DNA from: Acidobacteriota bacterium
GTDB lineage: Bacteria > Acidobacteriota > UBA6911
Length of the DNA stretch: 49,961 nucleotides
NCBI GenBank assembly: GCA_012719355.1
Contig: JAAYAM010000136.1
Span: 1-49,961 of the forward strand
Direction: 5' to 3'
Part shown: one piece after another, positions 3,665 to 13,281 of the stretch
Position numbering within the stretch: the first letter of the stretch is position 1
Layout: each line of letters opens with the position of its first letter
Position numbers and translations under genes: made by a program
The notes under the pieces: generated by a model
The model's database searches: none
What the model was told of the DNA's origin: nothing
The model's input: only the letters and a program-made list of their open reading frames with translations

Positions 3665-5413
3665 TTACCGCCAGTCGTCGATCTTGACTCCGCGGCCGAC
3701 TCCAAAGTCCGTAACGAACCATGTAGTCTGTCCGCCGCCCGTCACGATCACGCCGATTCCTCTCGGCTGGAATGGCTTGATCATTGAATCCGGGGGAGCC
3801 TTCATGCGCGATGCATGCGGCTCAAGCCCCTGCAGGGCCATCGACGCCCACATGGTGGAAACGACGCCGTTGCCCCAGAATGAAGCGATTGTCTTCTCGA
3901 CATTCTCGGCCAGCCACTTGGCAAGGTCAGCCTTGGTGTTGAATCCCTGCGAGTCCTTGAGGAGTCCGGCGACGGCTGGATCCATGATGACCGAAGCCCC
4001 CATCCCGCTGAGCGACCGCATGTAGTCGCGCATCAGGAACTGCGGCGGATACCCACGCTGGACTTCGCCGACGCTGGAAATGTAGCTCCATCCCGTCGAC
4101 ACCGTCAGGACGCTGTCGGTGGGTTTGGCGCCCATCTGCACATGGACGGGATCCCATCCCGCCGGCAGAGCTTCCTCATTCTCCGCAATGCACAGGTTGT
4201 TGTACTGCAGGTTGCTCCCGAGGGAGCTGAAAGTCGTCTTGCCTGCGTGCAGGTTGCCTGCGGTCTTGGACATGAGAGTGAAAGAGCGTCCCAGCACCGA
4301 ATTGACTTCGTTGTGGGGCCCCATCACGTTGCCCTTGTAGTTCATCTTCACTTCGTTCCGTATCGGGCCGTTGACCAGGATCATGTTTGCCATGGAACTG
4401 GTCGAGTTTCCGAACGGCACGTACGTAGCCAGGGCAAGGATCAGCGGGAAGTGCTGAGGCTTGGCTCCGGCCATAACCGCGCAGACCGCGACTTTCTCTA
4501 CCGTAAGATTCCTGGCGCCGCCCGGCCAGGTGATCTTCTTGACGACTTCATCCGGCTTGCGGCTGGTTCCCTTCAGCATCGCCGCCACTCTCTCTTCGGT
4601 AGGAAGGATGATCGGGTTGTAGTCCGTCCAGTCCTTGTCCTTGAAGAGCTGCTGGAGATTGTCTTCGGTGTCCGGCTCGAGCAGGCGGGGTTCCGCGACT
4701 GCTTCAGGCGGCCGCCCCTGGAACTTCTCCTTCTCAGTCAGAGGCTTGGTGAATCCGTCCACGATGGCCTGCATCATGGGTTTGCCGCTGACCACGTCTT
4801 CTCTTTCGAAAACGTAGCTGTGGTGCACCGATTTCGGTTGTCCCGCTACCGGGAACGGGAATCCGACATAACGGATCGGCATGCCGTTGGTGTACTCAAA
4901 GTCGTATCCGATTGCGTAGTGTACGATGTTTGCAGCTGCTGCTCCCACTGTGGGGATGCCCATCTTTTCAAGAGTTTTTGCATGTTGGCTCACGGCCGAC
5001 GTACAGCCATCTCAACCGGATATGCCGATCAACGCGGCCTGTCCATTCTGCTTGATCTCCTTCCACAACGCCGGATCATCGTTGCTGTAGGAGCCGTATT
5101 TTCTCTTGATGACTATTTTGGCGCTGGGAATGTTCTGTTTGAACCAGGCCTGGATTTCTTCAAATACGCTGTAGGCGGCTTCCGGTCCGCCCCAGTTGAT
5201 GTCGACCAGATAGATAGTCTTCCCCTCGAGCGTGTCCAGCCGGGGTGACAAAGGCTCCCGGTCCACCATCTTGCTCTCGATGGCCGGATTGAGCACCGTG
5301 ATCAGAGGCTTGCCTGCGGCTTTCTGCTGGGCCTGCACCGGCGCGAGTCCCGCAGTCGCCACTGCCGCCATGATCAGCGCCAGACAGCATGTGAACAGTT
5401 GGTTTCTTCTCAC
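3665..5413 (-). CDS. Predicted exported selenoprotein related to the UGSC family (in-frame TGA read as selenocysteine)
   Basis: Two ORFs (5413-5012 and the rest down to 3665) share one frame and are separated only by TGA at 5014-5012. Read through, they give 582 residues. Residues 1-28 form a signal peptide (Arg-Arg start, hydrophobic core, A-Q-A end). Residues 35-133 have the layout of the UGSC family N-terminus, with strand I-Y-L-V-D-I and then A-L-I-G-I-S-G directly before the TGA. The codon sits in G-U134-D-G-C137-T-S, a U-x-x-C redox pair, followed by L-E-K-M-G-I-P-T-V as expected for that fold. A domain of about 350 residues follows and ends in V-K-I-D-D-W-R, as in the left-edge gene. 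Start is GTG with GGAAAGGA upstream. No ATG lies near the TGA to restart translation; only a weak GTG at 4993. The reaction is unknown; an extracytoplasmic thiol/selenol redox role is inference. Confidence 0.8.
4986..5009 (-). promoter_or_regulatory. Candidate bacterial SECIS hairpin after the TGA
   Basis: Two bases after the TGA, the minus strand can form a 5-bp stem (TGGCT 5009-5005 with AGCCA 4990-4986), a small GT/G internal loop, a 3-bp upper stem (ACG/CGT) and a TCGGC loop. Bacterial SECIS elements lie inside the coding sequence directly downstream of the Sec codon. Here the loop begins 12 bases after TGA, which is somewhat close compared with known elements. The fold was made by eye. 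Confidence 0.4.
5012..5014 (-). other. Predicted selenocysteine codon (TGA, residue 134)
   Basis: In-frame TGA with protein homology continuing without a break on both sides, sitting at the position of the U of the UGSC family and three residues before a conserved-type Cys (U-x-x-C). Confidence 0.75.
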
Positions 5414-7065: not shown

Positions 7066-9753
7066 TCAACGTCCGGTAATCCTTGCCCAGGCCGGAACAG
7101 GGATTCCCGCCGACTCCGGCAACCCCGCCGGGAGTGCCGCCACTCCCGGTGGGAGCGATGGATTCATTCTTATAGCGAGACTGCGGCTGACGGCGCCGAA
7201 AGTAAGCGCCACTTCCTGTTCCGCTGATATGCCGAGTTTTTCAGCGTCGGAGGGATTCACCTCCAGAAAAGGTTTTTCGGCGCGTGCCGCGATCCCCGGC
7301 GCGTGCATGCTCAATTCTTCGCTTCCGAAAATCCGAAATGCGGGAACCACGAAGACCTTCCCGTCGCGGCTCCTGAACGGCTCGGGTATCCGGCTGGAAT
7401 AGGAAATATCATCGGTTCTCTTGCCTTCCCCGAGTCTTGATCCGGCCGGTCCGCCGCGCAGGGGGCCGCCGATTTCGCTCTGGTACTTGTTCACCGCCTG
7501 GTAAGAGTTCCAGCCCGGAGCCCAGAAGAACGACGCCAGTCCTGCCGGAGGAGGCCCCTGGTACCCTTCCATCGAAAACGCGAGAGCCGAGTCGGGATCC
7601 CGCGGCGGTGCCGGCTCGTGCACGGTGATATCCGCCATCATAGCGGTCCGGCCGCTGTAGCGGTGCAGCTGGCGCGGTATCTTCTGTCCCGCGATCCTGA
7701 ATGATGCTGCCGGCGCGGCTTTCGAAATCTCCTGGAATTGCGGCAATTCGGCTTCGATAGCTGCGATCACGGCATCGAGGCTGCGCCAGGAATCCTCGTT
7801 CAGCCGTCCTGCGGCTATCGCGATTTCCCTCAGCCAGCGCCAGCTTTCCAGAACGCCCTGCCGCGGCGGCATCACCTTGAAATAACGCTGCGCCCTGCCT
7901 TCGCTGTTTACCAGAGTCCCTTCCGATTCCGCGAAGGTGCCGGCGGGCAGTATCGTTTCTGCTTTCGCTGTGGTCTCGTTTTCCAGCGAATCGAGCACAA
8001 CGGTGCGGGCGGCCCGCAGAAATTCGTCGACCTGTTGCACGGCTGATCTCCTGTACAGGTCATTTTCCAGCACGATGATCGCGTCGGCCCCGCTGCGGGC
8101 CGCTTCGAAGGCGGCGTCCAGATCTTTCGCTTCCATGAGCGCCAGGCCGGCGGAATTGCACTCAGGGACCGTCAATGCCAGTCTCACCCGCTCCGGGTCA
8201 GGGTGTGTCCGGGCCAGGGCAAGCGCTACATTGGCGCCGGCTTCGATCAGCGCCGCGTTTCTGCAGCCGGTGCCGAAGATTACTGCAGGTCTGTTCGCCC
8301 CTTTCAGTATTCCGGCGATTCTTTCTGCAAGCTCGGCTTCTTCGCGGCCGAGTCCTTCAACACGCGGCGCCTGCGGATCAATGGCGCAGGCGATCGCATA
8401 GCCGAGTCTCGCCAGGTCTTCCGGCGCTCCACGGTACGATTCGGATGCGATTTCGTCGAGAGCCGTTTCGTACGGGGTGGCGATGACGAGCGGGCTCCTC
8501 TCATCCTGGGCCAGCGTCCTGACGGCATAGTCATGCCACGCCGGAATGTTCATCCGTGCGGCGGTTTCCATCGATTTCCGGCGCACCGATTGTCTCACGG
8601 CGAGCGCAAGGCGCGGCGCCGTGTTGATAAGGTCTTCTCCGAGCACGAGGACGGCATCAGAGACTTCGATGTCGTGCACCGAAGCGATCGGGCATGGGCT
8701 CCTGCGCAGAAGTTCGGCGACCTTTGCGACCGGCAGGCTTTCTTCCGCCCGCACTCCACTGAAGAAGCGGTCCGCTCCGACGAGCATGCGCAGCGCGAAA
8801 TTCGCCTCCAGCGACGCGCGTGGCGAACCGATGCCGATGACCTTCCTCCCGTTCTTTATTACCGAAGCGATATCTTCTATGACCTGCCGCTGAGGCACTG
8901 ACGGACGGATGCTGCCGATCCTGCGCTCGCTGTTTACGAATTCGTATCCGAAGCGGCCGCGGTCGCACAGGAAATAGCCGTTGATGTCGAAGTGAAAGCG
9001 GTTGACTATGCGGCGCAGCATGCCGTACCGGGCACGCGGGGAAGTGTTGCAGCCGACTCCGCAGTGGATGCAGATCGAGGGCGCGTCCTGGAGATCCCAT
9101 TTCCGCGTGTAGTGCCTGGCCAGAGTCTTGTCCGTGAACACTCCGGTCGGGCAGACCTCAACAAGGTTGCCGCTGAATTCGTTTTCCAGCGTCCCGTCAT
9201 GTGCCCGACCGAAGTAGACGTGATCGTGAACCGAGAAGACGTTCAGGTCGCGTCCGCCCGCATAGTCCCGGTAGTAGCGGACGCAGCGGTAGCACTGGAT
9301 GCAGCGGTTCATTTCGTGATTGATGAAGGGGCCCAGATCCTGGTTGCGATAGGTCCTTTTCCTGAACCGTGTGCGCCGGTAGGCGTGCCCGGTCATGACA
9401 GTCATGTCCTGCAGGTGGCATTCGCCCCCTTCGTCGCAGACGGGGCAATCGTGGGGATGGTTGAGCATCAGCCATTCGATCACGCTCGCCCGGAACGTTT
9501 TTGCCTCAGGGTCGTCGATTGAGATCCTGGTCCCGTCCGCCGCGGGGGTCATGCAGGCCATGATGATCTTGCCCTTCGTGTCATTCTCGTCCTTGAACTG
9601 CTTCACGGCGCACTGGCGGCAGGCGCCGACGGAACCCATTGCGGGGTGCCAGCAGAAGTAGGGAATATTGAAGCCCAGTGACAGGCATGCCTGGAGCAGG
9701 TTGTCGTCCGGATTAACCTCATATGGTTTGTTGTCTATGTAAATCGTCGCCAT
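7066..9753 (-). CDS. nuoG: NADH-quinone oxidoreductase subunit G
   Basis: The 895-residue product begins with a [2Fe-2S] ferredoxin domain (1-80; Y-F-C-W-H-P and G-A-C-R-Q-C). The His-Cys3 region follows (H-P-H-D-C-P-V-C-D-x-x-G-E-C), then a [4Fe-4S] motif (C-I-Q-C-Y-R-C), and a further C-x2-C-x3-C with a distal Cys, which fits the N7 cluster. The rest is a molybdopterin-oxidoreductase-like domain with a C-terminal extension. It conducts electrons from NuoF to NuoI in the peripheral arm. ATG start, three bases after nuoF. Confidence 0.95.
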   Translation of the reverse strand: MATIYIDNKPYEVNPDDNLLQACLSLGFNIPYFCWHPAMGSVGACRQCAVKQFKDENDTKGKIIMACMTPAADGTRISIDDPEAKTFRASVIEWLMLNHPHDCPVCDEGGECHLQDMTVMTGHAYRRTRFRKRTYRNQDLGPFINHEMNRCIQCYRCVRYYRDYAGGRDLNVFSVHDHVYFGRAHDGTLENEFSGNLVEVCPTGVFTDKTLARHYTRKWDLQDAPSICIHCGVGCNTSPRARYGMLRRIVNRFHFDINGYFLCDRGRFGYEFVNSERRIGSIRPSVPQRQVIEDIASVIKNGRKVIGIGSPRASLEANFALRMLVGADRFFSGVRAEESLPVAKVAELLRRSPCPIASVHDIEVSDAVLVLGEDLINTAPRLALAVRQSVRRKSMETAARMNIPAWHDYAVRTLAQDERSPLVIATPYETALDEIASESYRGAPEDLARLGYAIACAIDPQAPRVEGLGREEAELAERIAGILKGANRPAVIFGTGCRNAALIEAGANVALALARTHPDPERVRLALTVPECNSAGLALMEAKDLDAAFEAARSGADAIIVLENDLYRRSAVQQVDEFLRAARTVVLDSLENETTAKAETILPAGTFAESEGTLVNSEGRAQRYFKVMPPRQGVLESWRWLREIAIAAGRLNEDSWRSLDAVIAAIEAELPQFQEISKAAPAASFRIAGQKIPRQLHRYSGRTAMMADITVHEPAPPRDPDSALAFSMEGYQGPPPAGLASFFWAPGWNSYQAVNKYQSEIGGPLRGGPAGSRLGEGKRTDDISYSSRIPEPFRSRDGKVFVVPAFRIFGSEELSMHAPGIAARAEKPFLEVNPSDAEKLGISAEQEVALTFGAVSRSLAIRMNPSLPPGVAALPAGLPESAGIPVPAWARITGR

Positions 9754-9756
9754 CGG

Positions 9757-11034
9757 TCATCTCCAGGGGCATCGGCCGTCACTGACATGCCGCTCGAAAT
9801 CGCTGCGGAAGTATTTAAGCGCGCTCTGAAGCGGTTCAACCGCGCCCGGAGCCAGGGCGCAGAATGTCAGCCCCGGTCCAAGGAGGAGGCATTGCTGCTG
9901 CAGGATCTCGAGATCCTGCAGCGTGCCGCGCCCCTCTTCAATCGCGGTGAGCATCTTCTCGATCCATGGAAGCCCTTCGCGACAAGGGGTGCACCAGCCG
10001 CACGATTCCTGTGCGAAGAAATGCTCGAGGTTGAGCACCATTCCGACCGGGCAGGTGCGGTCGTCCAGAACGATCATGGTTCCGGTGCCGAGGCGGCTGC
10101 CGGCGCGCTGCACCGAGTCGAAATCCATCGCAATATCGAGGTGTTCCTCCACAAGAAAATCCGTCGATGCTCCTCCCGGAATCACGCCGCGGAACCTGTA
10201 GCCGTCGAGCATCCCTCCCGCATGTTCTTCCAGTATCTCGCGCAGGGAAGTGCCCATCGGGAGTTCCCATATCCCGGGCCTGTTCACGTTCCCGCTCGCT
10301 CCGTAGAGCTTTGTGCCGCCGTCTTTGCTCCGGCTGAGGCCGCGAAACCATGCGGCGCCGTTGTTGATAATGTGGGGAATGTTGCAGAGCGTCTCGACGT
10401 TCTGCACAATCGTCGGTTTGCCCCACAGTCCGGATATCTGGGGGAAAGGAGGTTTCGCGCGCGGATTCGCGCGTTTCCCTTCTAGGGCGTTCAGCAGCGC
10501 CGTTTCCTCTCCGCAGATGTAGCGCCCGGCGCTCAGGTGCAGGTAGATCTCCAGGTTGTATCCGGTCCCGAGAATATTCACCCCGAGATAGTTCTTCGCC
10601 CGGGCTTCGTCGAGCGCCTTTTCGATCCGGCGCGCGGCAAGCCTGTACTCATCGCGCAGAAAGATGTACCCGACGCTTGCCTGTATGGCATACGAGGCCA
10701 GGATCATCCCTTCGATCAGTTCGTGCGGATCGCCTTCGAGCAAAACCCGGTCTTTGAACGTGCCCGGTTCCATTTCGTCGGCGTTGCAGACGAGGTATTT
10801 CGGTTGGGGGGGCTCCGGGCCCATCGGCACGAAGCTCCATTTCATGCCGGTAGGAAAGCCCGCGCCTCCTCGCCCGCGCAGATTCGACTGCTTCACTTCC
10901 TCAATGACCGCTGCCGAGGTCATATCACGGAGGGCCTTCCGGACGGCCTGGTATCCTCCGGTCCTCTCGTACTCTGCAATGCCGGGAGGCTCTCCATCCG
11001 GTCTGATCCTCTGGGTTAAAGGTGTCTCTGCCAT
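9757..11034 (-). CDS. nuoF: NADH-quinone oxidoreductase subunit F (NADH- and FMN-binding)
   Basis: The 425-residue product has the NADH/FMN glycine-rich segment G-R-G-G-A-G-F-P-T-G-x-K-W at about 53-65, Y-I-C-G-E-E-T-A-L at about 170, and the N3 cluster motif E-S-C-G-W-C-T-P-C-R-E-G near 350. It accepts hydride from NADH and passes electrons to NuoE and NuoG. It is packed between nuoE (5-base gap) and nuoG (3-base gap). Confidence 0.96.
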   Translation of the reverse strand: MAETPLTQRIRPDGEPPGIAEYERTGGYQAVRKALRDMTSAAVIEEVKQSNLRGRGGAGFPTGMKWSFVPMGPEPPQPKYLVCNADEMEPGTFKDRVLLEGDPHELIEGMILASYAIQASVGYIFLRDEYRLAARRIEKALDEARAKNYLGVNILGTGYNLEIYLHLSAGRYICGEETALLNALEGKRANPRAKPPFPQISGLWGKPTIVQNVETLCNIPHIINNGAAWFRGLSRSKDGGTKLYGASGNVNRPGIWELPMGTSLREILEEHAGGMLDGYRFRGVIPGGASTDFLVEEHLDIAMDFDSVQRAGSRLGTGTMIVLDDRTCPVGMVLNLEHFFAQESCGWCTPCREGLPWIEKMLTAIEEGRGTLQDLEILQQQCLLLGPGLTFCALAPGAVEPLQSALKYFRSDFERHVSDGRCPWR

Positions 11035-11039
11035 CGCGC

Positions 11040-11504
11040 TTACTTGTAGTTCTCCAGAATCCGGTCGATCTTCTCGGGGTCAAGATTGACGTGAAGGTCG
11101 TTATCGACCATCATTGCCGGCGCGCTCCCGCACGCGCCGAGGCAGACAATGGGAAGGAGCGTGAAACGGTTGTCCGGCGTGGTCTCTCCCATAGCCAGCC
11201 CCAGCTTTGAGCGTAAATAGTCGCGCAATCCTTCGTATCCCCTGATCCAGCAGCTCACGCTGTCGCAGACCAGGATGACGTGTCGTCCCACGGGTCTTCT
11301 GTAAATCAGGTTATAGAATGTTGCCACCCCATCGATCTCTTCGACGGTCATTCCGAGGAATTCTCCCAGATCCGCCAGTGCTTCGTCGGAAATCCATCCC
11401 CGGTGTTTCTGCACGATCTTGAGCCCTTCAATGCACAGGGCGCGCCTGTCCCGGTAGCGCTCGAGTTCACGTTCGATTTCCTGCTGTTCTTCAGGCTTCA
11501 ACAT
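11040..11504 (-). CDS. nuoE: NADH-quinone oxidoreductase subunit E
   Basis: The 154-residue thioredoxin-like subunit has the four ligands of the N1a [2Fe-2S] cluster at C80, C85, C121 and C125, in the exact C-x4-C...C-x3-C spacing of the family. A-T-F-Y at 61-64 is also typical. It forms the NADH dehydrogenase module with NuoF. It is separated from nuoCD by 40 bases and from nuoF by 5. Confidence 0.95.
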   Translation of the reverse strand: MLKPEEQQEIERELERYRDRRALCIEGLKIVQKHRGWISDEALADLGEFLGMTVEEIDGVATFYNLIYRRPVGRHVILVCDSVSCWIRGYEGLRDYLRSKLGLAMGETTPDNRFTLLPIVCLGACGSAPAMMVDNDLHVNLDPEKIDRILENYK

Positions 11505-11544
11505 GTTCTCTTCCGTCTCTTTGCAGCATGTTCCATTTTCCCGT

Positions 11545-13281
11545 TTACCTGTCGACGTCTCCCATGACGAAATCGATGCTCCCGAGGATTGCGAGAAGAT
11601 CGGAGACGAGCAGCCCTCTGCTAAACAACGGGATCATCTGCAGATGCGGGAAAGACGGGGTCCGGATGCGCGCCCGATAGGCCGCGGTATTCCCGTCGCT
11701 GATGAGGTAATAGGCGTTGCATCCCTTGGGAGCTTCGACCTGCGTGATCGCCTCGCCCGGCGGAACCACCGGCCCCCAGCTGACCCCCAGGAAGTGGTGA
11801 ATCAACGTTTCTATATCCTGCATCGTCTTTTCTTTGATTGCCGGGACTGAGCCGGAGTCCGTTGATTTGTATGGGCCCTCGGGCATATTGTCGACGCATT
11901 GCTCGATTATCCACAGACTCTGTCTCATTTCTTCCACGTGGATCACGGACCTGTCATAGCAGTCGCCGTTCTTCCCAGTCGGGATGTCGAACTGGAACTG
12001 ATCGTAACCCGAGTATGGCCTCTGTTTGCGGAAGTCCCATTCCAGCCCGGCTGCGCGCAGTCCCGGACCGGTGACGCCCCAGTCGATCGCTTCATCGATC
12101 GTGTACTGCCCGATTCCCTGCGTGCGCGCCTTGAAAATGCGGTTCTTAAGCACCATCCCGTCGTATTCGTCGAGGTGCGGACGCAGATACTTGACGAAGT
12201 CACGGAACTGCCGGTCCCATCCCTGCGGGAGATCCTGCGCGACCCCGCCGATGCGAAACCATCCGGGGTGCATTCGTGCGCCGGTGACGGCCTGCACGAT
12301 GTCAAGTGCCCGCTCCCTGTCATTGAACATGTAGAAGACGGGTGACATGGCTCCAAGATCCTGCGCGAAGGTTCCGTACCAGACGAGATGGCTGATGATC
12401 CTGAACAGTTCCGCCATAAGGATGCGTATTACCTTGGCCCGGTCAGGCACCCTGATGCCTGCGAGGAGTTCGACCGACTGCACGTAGCTGAATTCGTTCT
12501 GCACGCCGGCAAGGTAGTCGATGCGGTCGGTGTAGGGAACAAAGGTATGCCACGACTGCCGCTCGCACATCTTTTCGGCGGCCCGGTGGTGAAACCCTAT
12601 GTCCAGAACCATGTCGACGATTTCCTCGCCGTCGAGCTGCAGAATGATGCGGAAGGGGCCGTGGGTCCCGGGATGTTGCGGCCCCAGATTGAGAAACATC
12701 AAATCGCTTTCTCCCTTGCGGCGCACCATCCCCCATTCTTCCGGATCGAACTGCAGGATCTTTTCCCGATAATCGTGAACCTCTTCGGGCATCGTAAAGG
12801 GGCCCATCTCGGTCGCCCTGGCAGGATGCTCTTTGCGCAGGGGGTGCCCCTTCCAGTCTCTGGGCATCAGGATGCGTCTGAGGTGAGGATGTCCTTCGAA
12901 CCGGATGCCGAACATGTCCCAGATTTCGCGCTCATACCAGTTGGCCGAAGCCCAGATTCCGGTTGCGCTGGGGACTTCCGGTTCCTCTCCCTCCAGCGCC
13001 GCCTTGAGCCTGATGTCCTCGTTCCTTTCGAAGGAGAGAAGATGGTAGACGACCGTGAAGTCGCCTGCGGGTTGCCCCCGGCGATGCCGGCGCGTGCGTT
13101 CGTCGATCGCGGTGAGGTCAAACAGCATCCGGTAAGGCTTGTCCACGCTCTTCAGGTAGCGCAGAACATCGAGAATCATCGATCGCGGAATCCATGCTGT
13201 GGGAATTCCGTCGCGGCCGGCCTGCGGCACGATCTGTTCGACACCGAATTGTGACTGCAGCTCTGCAATTATCGGTTCCAT
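11545..13281 (-). CDS. nuoCD: NADH-quinone oxidoreductase fused subunits C/D
   Basis: The 578-residue product is a fusion. Residues 1 to about 185 are NuoC (A-S[16 protein letters not shown], then R-R-I-L-M-P-x-D-W-x-G-H-P-L-R-K). From about 195 it is NuoD ([21 protein letters not shown], and the final D-x-V-M-G-D-V-D-R). NuoD forms the quinone site with NuoB. The C-D fusion is known from enterobacteria and several other phyla. Both halves are complete and the frame is unbroken through the linker. Confidence 0.95.

Follow-up and report, generated by a model that had tools for sequence, protein, structure and literature searches.

An in-frame UGA joins two open reading frames into one gene for a two-domain, UGSC-type selenoprotein with many paralogues in Acidobacteriota

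Two adjacent reading frames in the genome of an Acidobacteriota bacterium form a single gene encoding an exported protein that contains selenium, and the in-frame UGA between them is almost certainly read as selenocysteine (Sec). This gene is not a lone oddity, it is one member of a large family of paralogous selenoproteins. UGSC proteins, with which it shares its N-terminal domain, belong to the selenoproteins met most often in aquatic metagenomes, and we know of no function for them. The gene lies on the reverse strand of the stretch of 49,961 nucleotides analysed here, which covers positions 1 to 49,961 of contig JAAYAM010000136.1 of assembly GCA_012719355.1 and is referred to below as the window.

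Results

The upstream frame (5413-5012, reverse strand) ends with the TGA at 5014-5012, beyond which it remains open as far as the TAA that terminates at 3665, just as a preliminary description of this DNA, made from its letters alone, had placed them (Table 1). When the TGA is read as Sec, the joined frame encodes 582 residues and contains this one TGA only, corresponding to residue 134 in the stretch GISG-U-DGC-TSAV (residues 130-141). The U-D-G-C motif forms the U-x-x-C pair at residues 134 and 137 that had been pointed out earlier, and the literal U-G-S-C motif is absent from the protein. The GTG at 5413 is preceded by GAAGGAAAGGAAAAC, and the GTG at 4993 is without a Shine-Dalgarno-like sequence upstream. 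The genetic code is not reassigned, since TGA is the ordinary stop of nuoG, nuoF, nuoA and padR within the window.

Table 1. Coordinates of the selenoprotein gene, its parts and a second family member in the window
Feature	Position	Strand	Details
Selenoprotein gene, GTG start 5413, in-frame UGA 5014-5012, TAA stop 3667-3665	3665..5413	-	582 residues
Predicted signal peptide, residues 1-28, cleavage after VQA28	5330..5413	-	by inspection
UGSC domain PF24696, residues 40-195	4829..5296	-	E 1.1e-13, 52.1 bits, gathering 25
UGA almost certainly read as selenocysteine, residue 134	5012..5014	-	
Cys137, partner Cys of the U-x-x-C motif, invariant	5003..5005	-	
SECIS-like hairpin inside the coding sequence just after the UGA	4979..5005	-	covariation, synonymous constraint
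C-terminal domain, residues 240-582, about 340 residues	3668..4696	-	
Second family member, C-terminal end only, truncated at the contig edge	3..287	+	matches residues 476-582

The genome of the window (4.57 Mb in 377 contigs) encodes SelA, SelB and SelD as well as a tRNA-Sec (selC) with the anticodon TCA, and the search for selA, selB, selC and selD suggested in the preliminary description consequently returned all four. Its SelD (L017) has one in-frame TGA of its own and is itself a selenoprotein candidate. Codon 134 is TGA in 11/11 close homologues, drawn from Acidobacteriota and two gammaproteobacterial MAGs, so that each of them has the anticipated Sec at residue 134, and no close homologue starts independently at 4993. 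Synonymous sites are saturated among the 11 orthologues (dS about 1.3), and dN/dS is 0.136 before the UGA, 0.124 just after it and 0.131 in the C-terminal domain. Codon identity at conserved residues reaches its maximum of 0.77 right after the TGA (gene mean 0.55, SD 0.07); the peak of synonymous constraint for the whole gene spans codons 133-148, and of the 537 eleven-codon windows, the six that rank highest begin at residues 133-138. Judged from these homologues, UGA134 is preserved as a translated codon, and the genome's set for Sec decoding is complete. SelB was present in 40 of the 40 genomes with any family match and in 215 of 356 others (P = 7e-9, without correction for relatedness).

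Directly after UGA134 comes a covarying, putative SECIS hairpin, and its site coincides with the strongest synonymous constraint in the gene. The inner arms lie at 5000-4995 and 4989-4984 and enclose the loop CGUGA (4994-4990), which in 27 related sequences follows the first base of the UGA at a distance of 20-24 nt. Changes on both sides of the helix occur at 4/6 pairs among these 27 sequences, and the covariation (0.257 versus 0.102 in shuffles, with 0/500 reaching the observed value) was lost when the arms were slid. RNAalifold alone retained only 3 of the hairpin pairs. As a single sequence the window hairpin is not more stable than its shuffles (z -0.9), and the case for the hairpin rests on covariation.

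Inspection of the N-terminus points to a signal peptide, in agreement with what had been proposed, and some orthologues carry a lipobox at this end. It is very probable that the protein is exported, in either a periplasmic or a lipid-anchored form. The proposed membership in the UGSC family stands for Pfam, where PF24696 scores well above its gathering threshold (52.1 versus 25 bits), but not for NCBIfam, where the 35.7 bits obtained with NF041046 are below the curated cut-off of 125. Across 25 diverse UGSC domains, invariance is limited to the U, the Cys three positions after it and a single Pro. An AlphaFold2 model of the N-terminal part (mean pLDDT 75) is Rossmann/flavodoxin-like and has Sec at the start of a helix following a strand, and thioredoxin is absent from the top 50 PDB structural matches of this model. 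The thioredoxin-like fold assumed in 2008 would on these two grounds not be favoured.

The additional C-terminal domain, earlier estimated at about 350 residues, is real and slightly shorter (Table 1). No sequence match to it was found in Pfam, NCBIfam or PDB, and a fold search with its AlphaFold2 model (pLDDT 79, pTM 0.80) returned no PDB neighbour below E 0.001. Cyclic amide hydrolases were considered as relatives and rejected, their resemblance being faint (TM about 0.2). In other Acidobacteriota families the UGSC and C-terminal domains are separate neighbouring genes, running in the same direction or divergently. The stand-alone C-terminal domain is there mostly found behind a TlpA-like CPTC domain, and two of the scanned proteins of this TlpA-like/C-terminal-domain type have AhpC-TSA/Redoxin matches, while the stand-alone UGSC neighbour gene has a TGA within the motif D-U-G-S-C. 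The occurrence of the same domains as a fusion and as split neighbours suggests that both domains and a thioredoxin-like donor are tied into one system.

A profile of 25 UGSC domains was compared by hhalign to 13 PF07355-type proteins of the phylum, the latter extended through their own UGA. UGSC and the extended GrdB/PrdB-type proteins aligned with a probability of 94.7% (E 5.8e-8) over about 70 columns around Sec, with U on U and C on C, and the controls were negative (reversed, 1.5%; unrelated, also negative). Unextended PF07355 regions gave no match because that model ends just before Sec. Family members display weak matches around Sec to the selenoproteins of glycine, sarcosine, betaine and D-proline reductases, and 10/25 have weak GrdF matches. 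The Pfam scan of the window protein yielded UGSC only and no PF07355, and PF07355 (GRDB) had no match at 1e-10 in the genome of the window. On profile evidence the UGSC domain shows remote homology to the Sec region of GrdB/PrdB without being a member of that family. Small GrdB/PrdB-like proteins with V-U-P-x-C or similar motifs, broken at the UGA, are also found in other Acidobacteriota (L162-L176).

The profile of the two-domain protein, searched against ten genomes of the genus, matched 12-37 places per genome. Exactly one TGA was present in about 6-18 of these per genome, roughly 130 overall in a hand count of the matches listed. Some 12 one-TGA copies belong to the window's own genome, and the U..C motif is present in those that were retrieved. 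Three MAGs labelled Gamma- and Deltaproteobacteria, all with tRNA-Sec, have 9-21 matches, mostly with exactly one TGA; these and the preceding copy counts may be inflated, since some MAGs are contaminated up to 7%.

The motif contexts among the paralogues comprise UDGC, UDSC, UHGC, UWGC, HUSxC and DUGSC. No Cys-for-Sec copy was found among the copies read. Most Sec-less copies have Ser or Gly with both U and C lost, as in most of the two-domain paralogues without Sec of the same genus (L138-L145), and a quick tree requires at least 4 changes to account for the Sec-less copies. The single copy with Leu at the Sec position and the Cys kept (L140:2781-4598, forward strand) branches inside a clade of Sec copies and looks like a case of UGA decay. 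On a long branch, a divergent copy near 9574-12657 (reverse strand) of L156 reads SW-U-GAA and is without the partner Cys; its UGA may encode a Sec that lacks a resolving Cys, or the stop may be unrelated. One family member has two in-frame TGA codons (G397:C13:1589066-1590721). Orthologous loci have convergent HUSxC copies on the side that matches positions 3-287 of the window.

The window copy is flanked by the nuo operon upstream and by PadR and an ABC permease downstream. No functional lead came from the neighbours of the window gene, and the neighbourhoods of its orthologues are not conserved. An HflX-like gene upstream in several orthologues was judged to be housekeeping and set aside, and a search of an anti-phage library gave nothing. 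Other copies are accompanied by genes for a tannase/feruloyl esterase, a tungsten aldehyde oxidoreductase, a xanthine-dehydrogenase-like protein and an aldo/keto reductase, each beside two copies, which is suggestive only as a clue to function. Tungsten aldehyde oxidoreductase-like or tannase-family genes adjoin family members at L154:4202-6265, L056:2530-4611, L100:7423-9009 and L110:3142-4797.

Discussion

The selenoprotein that the preliminary description had suspected is borne out by the Sec machinery of the genome, the UGA in all close homologues, the low dN/dS on both sides of it and the covarying hairpin, and we have very little doubt, from sequence comparison, that Sec would be inserted at this UGA. 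Calling of open reading frames with table 11 gives two separate genes, a short UGSC-like frame that stops at the UGA and a downstream frame from the GTG at 4993, but the UGA falls in the middle of a conserved UGSC domain, it is retained by all 11 orthologues with equal dN/dS before and after it, 4993 is without a Shine-Dalgarno sequence, and over 100 paralogous places likewise have exactly one TGA. The two-gene interpretation is accordingly very improbable. Even less credit can be given to a stop created by pseudogenization or by a sequencing error, an idea that the conservation refutes. The only point in its favour is one in-frame stop in a MAG of draft quality, whereas the same TGA is found in independently sequenced genomes and phyla, together with strong purifying selection and the covariation of the hairpin.

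The function of the protein can be approached with graded confidence. As an overall explanation, an exported two-domain selenoprotein with UxxC chemistry and recycling of the TlpA type is probable. That the UxxC motif performs redox or nucleophilic catalysis with recycling by thioredoxin is favoured somewhat less firmly, and a reductive cleavage specifically like that of GrdB/PrdB is put forward tentatively. One may instead envisage a periplasmic thiol-disulfide oxidoreductase or peroxidase engaged in redox balance or folding, without any such substrate cleavage. UxxC is typical of redox selenoproteins, TlpA domains are linked to the family, and a thioredoxin-like redox role was assumed by the 2008 authors (PMC2398784). 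The Rossmann/flavodoxin-like model, with no thioredoxin in its top 50 structural matches, the profile link to GrdB/PrdB, and the size and conservation of the second domain together with the abundance of paralogues, which suggest substrate-specific enzymes, argue against this role, leaving it a conceivable but somewhat doubtful candidate. It is unlikely that the protein acts with neighbouring enzymes in the conversion of aromatic or plant-derived compounds; the esterase, oxidoreductase, dehydrogenase-like and reductase genes noted above are in keeping with such a role, but each association was seen only twice, the subfamilies are mixed and no such gene is present at the window locus.

The protein is most likely a selenol enzyme of the periplasm that uses its UxxC motif and is recycled by a partner resembling thioredoxin. 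In such an enzyme, the alpha/beta UGSC domain would hold its selenocysteine selenol at a helix N-terminus, in a position like that in the Sec region of GrdB/PrdB, and Sec134 could attack or reduce a small substrate held between the UGSC and C-terminal domains. Cys137 would next resolve the selenium intermediate to a selenenylsulfide, and a periplasmic reductase of the TlpA/thioredoxin type, fused to the C-terminal domain in other lineages, might reduce this selenenylsulfide back. Binding of the substrate or of a partner most likely falls to the C-terminal domain, and the paralogues with differing motif contexts have probably become specialised for different substrates.

Standard annotation would cut every Sec copy of this family in two at the UGA. 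It had been suggested that the protein may be undescribed. For the architecture this is only partly right, as a fusion of UGSC with a domain termed Unknown_1, which may or may not be the present C-terminal domain, was reported in 2008 from ocean metagenomes (PMC2398784, Fig. S1A), and the two-domain architecture itself is not clearly new. The suggestion fares better for the copy-number expansion and the motif variants, which appear undescribed in the searchable literature, where no paper was found on either of them, on the TlpA link or on Acidobacteriota in the context of UGSC.

Bacteria with at least 6 selenoprotein genes have been termed selenoprotein-rich (PMC5029168), and the largest reported bacterial sets comprise 57 and 63 genes (PMC13188914). 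The set of 63 was described in a Methylomirabilota MAG by Deng 2026, as related in that review, and going by this account it might include the present two-domain UGSC family. It is a tentative proposition that there exists a large superfamily of exported selenoenzymes, each composed of a GrdB/PrdB-like Sec domain and a substrate domain of new fold, with a dozen or more substrate-specific reductases per genome, whose members went unrecognised because annotation breaks each of them at the UGA. If so, these Acidobacteriota and their relatives would be among the most selenoprotein-rich bacteria. The window leads to a two-domain sister family of UGSC with a link to GrdB/PrdB and with TlpA as probable electron donor, and the family offers concrete candidates for exploring the function of the UGSC domain and why its copies keep selenocysteine over cysteine.

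Among known systems, the UGSC family (PF24696; NF041046; the 'UGSC-containing protein' of Zhang and Gladyshev 2008) has the homologous domain with the same place of Sec, the UxxC motif and mostly Sec forms, whereas the window protein has a U-D-G-C motif, is predicted to be exported, carries a second domain of 340 residues and falls under the NCBIfam equivalog cut-off. The UGSC/Unknown_1 fusion (PMC2398784) likewise combines a UGSC domain with a conserved domain of unassigned function, and the text passages of that paper report neither genomic expansion nor export. GrdB, GrdF, GrdH and PrdB (PF07355), of the glycine, sarcosine, betaine and D-proline reductases, can be aligned to the UGSC domain over the approximately 70 columns of their Sec region, but these reductases are cytoplasmic and work with other partner subunits, and the window protein lies outside PF07355. 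In other Acidobacteriota, the thioredoxin of TlpA/ResA type that is joined to the C-terminal domain brings the same two parts next to each other and has a UGSC partner with Sec; in contrast to the window gene, those parts are separate genes, with an additional TlpA domain and the motif D-U-G-S-C.
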